Below, one piece after another: positions 1-2,036 of a stretch of DNA of 64,000 nt (the stretch's first letter is position 1; every line of letters starts with the position of its first letter). The stretch spans positions 1-64,000 of the forward strand of contig JARGPR010000001.1 of assembly GCA_029210125.1 (NCBI GenBank), in the 5' to 3' direction. The translations under genes were made by a program, and so were the position numbers. The stretch comes from Pseudomonadales bacterium. Its GTDB lineage: Bacteria > Pseudomonadota > Gammaproteobacteria > Pseudomonadales > JAHRWD01. The notes beneath the pieces were generated by a model. The model did no database searches. It saw only the letters and a program-made list of their open reading frames with translations, and was not told where the DNA came from.

Positions 1-31
1 TCCATATAGGTTATCTAACTATATAGGGTGT

Positions 32-1045
32 CTACTGTTTGTGGGTAACACGGTTGCCTAAGTATAGGTCTTTGAAAGTAATGACTAGTAGGTAGTTATT
101 TTGACTGCTTGGTATTTCTCTAGCGTTGCTATCTTCAATTTTACGTATTACATCATGAGCTTGTTTGATAGCTCTTAATATTGATTTTTTCGTTTTGTTA
201 CGAATGATTTCAGATGAGTGTGTTGTTTTTCCTTGGGCGTTCATTTCAACCGCTTTTGCATCAATGAAAATGTTTGATGACTCGTCCTGTACAAGGAAAT
301 CTATTTGGTTTCCCTTTTTTCCCAGTAGTCTCTCAATATCTTGTTCATTCAAAAAGTTTGTTTTGGAATGCTCGAGTGATTTTTCAACGTATCTCTCAAA
401 TAGAATTCCAAATTTCTCCATAAACTTTTCGGCATCTAAATTTCTCATGAGGTCGTAAATGAAATATTCAAACCGTCTATACAGAATATTCTTATGGGTG
501 AGTATATATTTACCTTTAATTTTAATTAGTGGGAATTCAATAAAAGGGGTTAGCTCGCTATATTCAACGGCGGGTCGTTTTCGATCATCATTTGTTACTA
601 GCGTTTCCCTAATCCCATCTATGTCTTTTGATATGGTTGCTAGAAAGCTATCTACTTTCTGATTAGAATGGCTATTTCTTACGGTTGAAAACCAATTTTC
701 TGGGAGAAATGATTCATTAGTGCTAAGGAATCTCGAAACTGTTACAAATGAGAGATCCAAATACTCCTGAACCTCTAGTCCTGTACTGTCTTTAAATGCT
801 TTGTAGATATAGTGGTTCTTTTCTAAGCCTGAAAAAATTATAGATTGTCTCGATAAATGAGCGTAATTAAAGTCAATTTGGTATAGGAATTGCTGAAACG
901 CAATGGTTCGTAAAAATAGGGTGTAATGATCATATTCATTTGGCATGCGTTGCTTGTCTGCCATCTCCCATATTGATTGTAGAATAGAATGTATCTCACC
1001 TTTAGTTAGTGGCTGTTTTTCCTTTGCTGTTGGGGTAGTTATCAT
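32..1045 (-). CDS. Hypothetical protein with PD-(D/E)XK nuclease-like C-terminal region
   Basis: I do not recognise the family as a whole. The first ~200 residues look mostly helical. The C-terminal third has the layout of a PD-(D/E)XK nuclease core: a helix with FERYVEKSLE, then QIDFLV (Asp near residue 247), then FIDAKAVE (Asp-Ala-Lys near 260-262), then a helix with IKQAHD. ATG at 1045 is preferred over the TTG directly before it. The gene overlaps the small upstream gene by 44 bp, so the two are probably co-transcribed and translationally coupled. The DNA is visibly AT-richer than everything to the right, which suggests horizontal transfer. A role in restriction or phage defence is possible but inferred only from the fold-like motif. 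The downstream partner, if any, lies outside the window. Confidence 0.6.
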   Translation of the reverse strand: MITTPTAKEKQPLTKGEIHSILQSIWEMADKQRMPNEYDHYTLFLRTIAFQQFLYQIDFNYAHLSRQSIIFSGLEKNHYIYKAFKDSTGLEVQEYLDLSFVTVSRFLSTNESFLPENWFSTVRNSHSNQKVDSFLATISKDIDGIRETLVTNDDRKRPAVEYSELTPFIEFPLIKIKGKYILTHKNILYRRFEYFIYDLMRNLDAEKFMEKFGILFERYVEKSLEHSKTNFLNEQDIERLLGKKGNQIDFLVQDESSNIFIDAKAVEMNAQGKTTHSSEIIRNKTKKSILRAIKQAHDVIRKIEDSNAREIPSSQNNYLLVITFKDLYLGNRVTHKQ

Positions 1046-1229
1046 CAAGCATTACCCACTTAATAAAAAGCATAACCAGCCAGGGATGCCGTTTTAGAGA
1101 CTCAATTTTGTCGTCAACACGAGTGTTCATGTATTCAAGGGCCCCTTCAATGAGGCCGTAATAATGGTATTTTCTAAATTTGTTTCTGATTTTCTTGAAT
1201 GCTGCATAATATTCGTCTTCGCTGAACAT
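1002..1229 (-). CDS. Small hypothetical protein, partner of the nuclease-like gene
   Basis: A 75-residue protein rich in Lys, Tyr and Asp with no recognised domain. It looks helical, with a short hydrophobic stretch (WLVMLFIKWVML) near residues 49-60 that is too short and interrupted for a confident membrane helix. The ATG at 1229 has an AAGGA ribosome-binding site at good spacing; a TTG eight codons earlier would place that site inside the gene. The 3' end overlaps the nuclease-like gene by 44 bp in another frame. It shares that gene's AT-rich composition. It could be an antitoxin-like or accessory subunit of the nuclease, but nothing in the sequence proves this. Confidence 0.5.
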   Translation of the reverse strand: MFSEDEYYAAFKKIRNKFRKYHYYGLIEGALEYMNTRVDDKIESLKRHPWLVMLFIKWVMLDDNYPNSKGKTATN

Positions 1230-1316
1230 GTTGCATTCCTTCTTCTTAATCAAGTTTTGGTTGATGGTGTTAAGTGTGAATATTCTGAAAGAGGGTGGAT
1301 GTTCCTATGGTCATAG

Positions 1317-1381
1317 TAAAAAAAGGCCGCCACCATTACCCGGCAATATAGTTTGCGTAAGGTAACGGCGGCGGCCTTTTT
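1317..1381 (-). terminator. Bidirectional Rho-independent terminator after fklB
   Basis: A 16-bp stem (GGCCGCCACCATTACC against GGTAACGGCGGCGGCC, two mismatches) closes a ~20-nt loop. It is flanked by A-runs on the left and T-runs on the right, so it can stop transcription from either side. It ends the ybiT-fklB unit and insulates it from the AT-rich genes to the left. Confidence 0.85.
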
Positions 1382-1415: not shown

Positions 1416-2036
1416 TTAACCTACTATAGCCAGTAGCTCAACATCAAATACCAAAGCTGAGTAGGGGCCAATATCGCCACCGGCACCATTTTCACCATAG
1501 GCGAGTTGGTAGGGCAGGTAGAGTTTCCATTTTGCACCGACTTCCATCATTTGAAGTGCTTCAGTCCAGCCGGCTATTACGCCACCAACGGGAAATTCAG
1601 CCGGTTCGCCACGATCATAGGAGCTGTCGAAAACTTTTCCGGTAATCAATGTGCCGTGGTAGTGGGTACGTACGGTTGAGCTGGCGCTGGGTTTTTCACC
1701 GTCGCCAGCATTGATGATTTCGTACTGAAGGCCGGACTCCGTAACGGTGACCTCTGGGCGTTTGGCATTTTCCGCCAGGAATTCTTCCCCGTCACCAGCC
1801 AACTCTAATGCCTGTTCGGTTTGTTTGGCTTGCATCCGTGCGCTGATATCTTTGAACGCTGCGTCTAAAACGGCTGGTTCTATAGGCATAGGGTTTTTGT
1901 TGAGTGAGTCGGTTAAGCCTTCAATGACCGCTTCAGCTACCATTCCATCAAAGGGGTTGCCGATGAGTTGGTCGCCCATTTGGCGGCCAATGCCGTAACT
2001 GACCTGCAGTTCTACTGTGTTGTATTTGTCTGACAT
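1416..2036 (-). CDS. fklB: FKBP-type peptidyl-prolyl cis-trans isomerase (FklB/FKBP22-like)
   Basis: Catalyses cis-trans isomerisation of X-Pro bonds and assists folding. The N-terminal ~100 residues (VSYGIGRQMGDQL...) are the helical dimerisation domain of FkpA/FklB proteins. The C-terminal half is the FKBP fold, with the conserved VRTHYHGTLITGKVFDSS and the AYGENGAGG...IGPYSALVFDVELL ending. At 206 residues it matches E. coli FklB, and no signal peptide is visible, so it is cytoplasmic. The ATG has an AAGGT site six bases upstream. It lies 64 bp downstream of ybiT on the same strand and is followed by a strong terminator. Confidence 0.93.
   Translation of the reverse strand: MSDKYNTVELQVSYGIGRQMGDQLIGNPFDGMVAEAVIEGLTDSLNKNPMPIEPAVLDAAFKDISARMQAKQTEQALELAGDGEEFLAENAKRPEVTVTESGLQYEIINAGDGEKPSASSTVRTHYHGTLITGKVFDSSYDRGEPAEFPVGGVIAGWTEALQMMEVGAKWKLYLPYQLAYGENGAGGDIGPYSALVFDVELLAIVG

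Follow-up and report, generated by a model that had tools for sequence, protein, structure and literature searches.

The left edge of the window (the whole 64,000-nucleotide stretch of DNA analysed, part of contig C2) holds, with very high probability as regards both identity and broken state, a single gapS1 gene, an accessory anti-phage nuclease gene that has decayed. The family is already described, and the copy here is a known kind of defence gene in a decayed form. In the history that we propose, a short duplication would have broken the gapS1 reading frame after approximately 75 codons, and an IS3-type element, arriving before or after the frame break, would have cut off the last approximately 110 codons, which now lie on contig C5. 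The original prediction read the locus as a two-gene module because of the frame break and the contig edge. The features on which the argument depends are collected in Table 1.

Family assignment and base composition

Two overlapping ORFs on the same strand were present in the ORF listing, as first described; their overlap measured 47 bases, not 44 bp. Both strongly matched just one NCBIfam family, NF047931 (antiphage_GapS1), and the two matches follow one another along the model. The large ORF scored 327.5 bits, above the curated cut-off of 320, and its gapS1 piece scored 332.6 bits when the genome was searched; the small ORF matched with E 2.5e-12. A search of the organism's own genome with NF047931 located the missing C-terminus (model positions 377-455) at C5:125897-126136, 51 bases from the end of that contig (126,187 bases), and no further gapS1 copy was found beyond the three pieces. 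The 455-position model was fully covered only by the three pieces together (1-59, 49-379, and 377-455), which also tile the closest intact relative (L005/L026, 500 residues, from JAPYNQ010000069.1) in order. This relative is 46% identical to the large piece, and the small ORF aligns to its residues preceding the middle piece. In the frame of the middle piece, homology starts near 1002. Thus, the small protein, which had been proposed as the partner of a nuclease, corresponds to the N-terminus of the same protein, and the unit that had not been recognized as a described system belongs to the known anti-phage protein GapS1. The likeness to GapS1 lies in the score above the curated cut-off, the coverage of the whole model by the three pieces and the retention of the D...DxK, E and Q residues; the difference is that the copy here is disrupted, once by a frame break and once by an insertion sequence, and is hence probably inactive, with core genes on both sides.

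All 30 complete members scanned matched NF047931; NF038001 (HYExAFE) was also matched by four of them (best E 1.5e-5), and Pfam gave weak matches in one or two members only (Glyco_hydro_57, TPD, SfsA, and DUF4720). Searches with both window proteins found nothing significant in Pfam or PADLOC. In PHROGs, both pieces matched phrog_14259 and phrog_34771, two families of unknown function, and the large piece alone matched two further, weaker families.

The unit is AT-rich relative to the rest of the window, as had been claimed: GC content was 0.354 across 52-1253 and 0.477 across 1383-64000, and a value as low was found in 0 of 1229 stretches of the same length (50-base steps, 1383 onward). At third codon positions, only the large ORF had a low GC content (0.32); the small ORF (0.49) was close to the neighboring FKBP gene (0.50). 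The description of the unit as foreign-looking and defence-related was right. A promoter scan of 1-2200 returned three sites, all on the + strand, compared with 5.3 in shuffled sequences.

Table 1 Positions of features at the left edge of the window, and the paired IS copies of the genome
Feature	Position	Strand	Remarks
Large ORF	32-1048	-	338 codons; ORF listing
Small ORF	1002-1253	-	83 codons; ORF listing
gapS1 middle piece	54..1048	-	Model 49-379; holds nuclease motif; ORF listed as 32-1048
gapS1 N-terminal piece	1002..1229	-	Model 1-59; likely start codon ATG at 1227-1229
D263-A-K265	254..262	-	DxK of PD-(D/E)XK core; alignment
D250	299-301	-	PD-(D/E)XK core residue
E218	395-397	-	PD-(D/E)XK core residue
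Q296	161-163	-	PD-(D/E)XK core residue
Tandem 4-bp duplication	1003..1010	.	Printed sequence; coincides with frame change in homology
End of IS3-type insertion sequence	1..53	.	Terminal repeat core at 28-51
Target-site duplication	54..57	.	GCAA on - strand; equals only the C5-end flank among five right flanks compared
FKBP gene terminator	1317..1381	-	Flank, outside gapS1; both arms conserved at same place in G001
FKBP-type peptidyl-prolyl isomerase	1416..2036	-	PF01346/PF00254; conserved right flank of insertion spot
IS pair C2/C5			4-bp target duplication GCAA
IS pair C14/C24			4-bp target duplication TATC
IS pair C23/C27			4-bp target duplication AGAA
IS pair C31/C18			4-bp target duplication AGGC

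The frame break and its possible origins

Of 44 related loci in the genome and viral collections, which encode 36 distinct proteins, 41 have a single complete ORF of 498-534 codons. The remaining three were one locus cut by a contig end and two fragments; the latter, in a Pseudomonas genome (L043) and a viral contig (L068), have open frames of 162 and 271 codons only. Homology in the window follows one frame up to KTAT and shifts to a second at KGEIHSILQ; the two stretches line up with KTAT-DDDLEALLQ in the relative. We infer that the 4-bp duplication at this point, a unit too short to be reported by a direct-repeat search with a minimum length of 8, caused the frame break. Intact members have one ORF of approximately 500 codons; here the frame is broken at approximately 1002-1010 and an insertion sequence lies at 54-57. 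The broken ORF lowers the probability that the gene works, not that it descends from gapS1.

An error of assembly or sequencing might have produced the break, in which case the IS insertion would be the sole real lesion. In favor of an error, the break amounts to one short event, and conservation remains good in the residues around it and in the nuclease motif; however, it is a clean tandem duplication rather than a homopolymer slip at the contig edge, and a 4-bp duplication approximately 1 kb from a contig end is not typical of errors. We consider an error unlikely. A programmed frameshift or reversible switch, with the full product made before the arrival of the IS, could draw on the 47-base overlap of the frames and on the homology that continues on both sides. 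It is very improbable, given that 41 of the 44 relatives are unsplit and the other three are the two fragments and the contig-end cut, that two copies of the 4-bp unit are few for a phase-variable tract, and that the gene is cut by the IS regardless. A genuine two-gene module, in which a small helical regulator or antitoxin overlaps a nuclease, would resemble the overlapping same-strand ORFs of many toxin-antitoxin operons, but such a module was rejected and retains scarcely any probability, the small ORF being the GapS1 N-terminus by both model match and alignment to a single-ORF relative, and the relatives being overwhelmingly one complete ORF.

The IS3-type element and the genomic setting

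For the single decayed gapS1 gene, the second lesion lies at the left edge of the window. The first base of the window is the first base of contig C2, so that the edge is an assembly break. An imperfect 24-base repeat occurs at window positions 28-51 and at C5:126135-126158, the two copies facing each other. When up to three mismatches were allowed, the repeat had ten occurrences in the genome and its reversed control had none. Eight of the ten were located at contig ends, and two bracketed a diverged complete element of approximately 1.2 kb at C1:125972-127134, the larger ORF of which carries rve and HTH_21 transposase domains. We take this element to be of IS3 type on the basis of its domain content and its two-ORF layout. 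The boundary of the element in the window was set at 53 from two further bases common to the left ends.

The eight contig ends comprised four left and four right ends, and the four bases beyond the element at each left flank equaled those of exactly one right flank, which gave four IS copies (Table 1). The diverged copy on C1 had no 4-bp target duplication at its flanks. Because the repeats and flank duplications pair C2 with C5, the last codons and the stop of the large ORF come from the insertion sequence, and the true 3′ part of gapS1 is on C5. The left edge of the window is therefore an IS insertion inside gapS1. The adjacency of C5 and C2 rests on the repeats, the target duplication and synteny; the assembly breaks there, and the body of the IS is unseen.

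Another of the copies, with the TATC duplication, interrupts a gene that matches PDC-M36B, a candidate in PADLOC, and leaves it in two pieces at C24:56-253 (-) and C14:56-259 (+) (loci L084 and L083); one piece corresponds to model positions 1-66 and the other to 66-124. A second, related ORF follows the piece on C14 (273-617), and beside the piece on C24 is a 477-residue protein with a D...ExK-like layout by eye. The copies at C23/C27 and C31/C18 (L085-L088) interrupt none of the listed ORFs of at least 90 codons but fall between them.

The next gene on C5 beyond the gapS1 piece encodes a ygjP-like metallopeptidase, and the next gene in the window encodes the FKBP. In the one genome of the same genus that was searched (G001), the ygjP-like gene (82% identical) and the FKBP gene (86% identical) were on one contig, in matching orientation and 1.4 kb apart, a synteny that supports C5 and C2 adjoining. 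The large piece had no match in G001, and blastn similarity with that genome stopped at or near the two genes, the terminator excepted. Since the core flanks are common to both genomes and gapS1 was not found in G001, the spot between these core genes is variable and gapS1 is accessory. The gap between the two genes in G001 holds a DUF4345 gene (L076:4458-4865), and this small site may be subject to gene turnover.

A strong terminator had been proposed as the border of the foreign unit. The inverted repeat with a T run at approximately 1317-1381 is there to be read by eye (a terminator scan listed only part of it, 1327-1346), but the border role does not hold: the terminator belongs to the FKBP gene, because it is conserved behind that gene in G001, where gapS1 was not found.

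The gapS1 gene is without an in-frame start region and without approximately 110 C-terminal codons, and for these two reasons it is most likely dead in this genome, a pseudogene. In the numbering of the relative, the lost C-terminal part contains F463 and F465, both invariant, the nearly invariant H468 and one strand.

Nuclease fold, relatives and proposed mechanism

The layout IDFLV...IDAKA had been read as that of PD-(D/E)XK nucleases, and the D and DxK proved common to relatives. Residues D250, D263, K265, E218 and Q296 were invariant in 31 of 31 aligned rows (window included), an invariance partly built in for D263, K265 and Q296, since 30 of the rows were found with patterns including N..ID.K or QAH; D250 and E218 fall outside the search patterns. 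The D and (D/E)xK were also kept, by eye, in all eight relatives from other whole-genome searches, four of which have E for D.

AlphaFold2 modeled the intact relative with pLDDT 88.8 and pTM 0.88. The N-terminal half is predicted to be helical and the C-terminal half alpha-beta; in the latter, two neighboring strands bear or adjoin the acidic residues and the lysine (D309 immediately precedes strand 310-314, and D322 and K324 fall within strand 317-324). The predicted fold thus contains the expected nuclease core, and nucleases with this fold head the structural matches. In the model of the window piece (pLDDT 78.1), the equivalent strands are at 251-255 and 258-265.

By sequence, searches of the PDB matched no solved nuclease significantly; the large window protein returned nothing significant there, and no profile match to Upx was found. 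By structure, the best Foldseek hits of the intact relative in the PDB were Upx (E 4.5e-5, probability 1.00), the only hit below 0.001, and N.BspD6I (E 1.2e-3), and Upx was also the top hit of the window piece (E 4.1e-4, probability 0.99); whole-model TM-scores by query length were low (0.35 for Upx and 0.20 for N.BspD6I). VIA-align ranked Nt.BspD6I first for the intact relative (Z 10.7), followed by its small partner subunit (9.2), Upx (9.1) and FokI (7.7). The best value for the window piece was 7.4, to Upx, and the weight is placed on the top three names and the motif, since Z below 8 may reflect merely a common arrangement, more so for helical models. Shedu SduA is a PD-(D/E)XK anti-phage nuclease; its match (8ps4, 8ps5, and 8ti9) was weak, with Z 5.5-5.6, within the range of common arrangements.

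The cleavage domain of Nt.BspD6I (6qnz, 5liz, and 2ewf) shares the PD-(D/E)XK core, with Z 10.7 over 173-179 residues and rmsd 4.2-4.5 in the top three rows. It differs in that the match is mostly to the C-terminal half (model residues 254-481 in four of five rows) at 11-13% identity, and in being a restriction-type enzyme. For Upx (cryo-EM structure 9wuf), which we take to be an anti-phage system, residues 767-1272 matched residues 1-444 of the intact-relative model (365 aligned), so that the match covers only its C-terminal part; the solved chain has 1212 residues, and the rmsd was 8.9. The domains of Upx and GapS1 may be arranged differently, or only part of the two may be alike. None of the 30 members matched PADLOC-DB at E 1, a library that may lack a Upx model.

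In nearby genomes gapS1 was rare, with matches in 4 of the 194 genomes of the relatives search and in 6 of the 369 of the class search (own genome included in both), two of the latter, again including its own, being over the cut-off. In the control for the family search, none of 14 genomes matched at E 1e-3, and one genome, E. coli, matched at E 1 with a score under the cut-off. Scanning the genome and viral collections with single sequences gave no relatives; the alignment query picked them up. Seventeen records of the phage collection matched, 16 of them named Klebsiella phages and many of equal length and score, as did five plasmid records at 20-25% identity. In Klebsiella phage ST437-OXA245phi4.1, the GapS1-like gene (L014:4689-6239) directly follows an integrase gene with a few-base overlap.

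The neighbor survey comprised 62 hand-picked ORFs from 16 of 18 non-viral loci (L037, the protein of which equals that of L036, the fragment L043 and 26 viral loci were left out). In Pfam (E 1e-5), the commonest among the best 25 of 87 families (integrase, GNAT, YaaC, and HMBD) occurred in 2 of the 62 ORFs, so that these families gave no sign of a conserved housekeeping context. In PADLOC (E 1e-10), the best 25 of 49 families each matched one member, the strongest matches among them being to the candidates PDC-S05, PDC-S23 and PDC-M68A. Some neighbors of the relatives appear defence-like, and no constant partner gene was found among the families listed for the 62 ORFs. As far as neighbors tell, GapS1 looks like a single-gene system.

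A conference report (PMC12908700) states that K. pneumoniae GAPS1 confers protection against many phages. A second paper (PMC12774648) describes a Klebsiella prophage protein as GAPS1-like in fold, with a TM-score of 0.87, and the same protein was a hit (H19) in our searches.

Intact GapS1 most likely acts alone. Its helical N-terminal part would sense or bind something made in infection, and sensing would release or position the C-terminal PD-(D/E)XK nuclease. The nuclease, whose fold is related to that of the Nt.BspD6I DNA-cutting domain, would then cut or nick what is presumably DNA, and the phage would be stopped. We regard this mechanism as moderately probable. A wider proposal is more doubtful and is offered tentatively: that a single helical-sensor-plus-nuclease design underlies both GapS1 and the C-terminal half of Upx, with GapS1 as a minimal Upx, and that one IS family knocked out two defence loci (gapS1 and the PDC-M36B gene) by transposition.

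The analysis corrects the reading of this locus, in which a single known defence gene took on the look of a new overlapping pair through a contig edge and a frame break, and terminal repeats with target duplications at contig ends offer a route by which such cases can be recognized. Two modest leads emerge, the Upx fold link and the recurrence of IS hits. If the former is true, two anti-phage proteins would be tied to one design; the latter, which struck one defence gene and one candidate for such a gene, would be consistent with the view that defence genes are easily lost.
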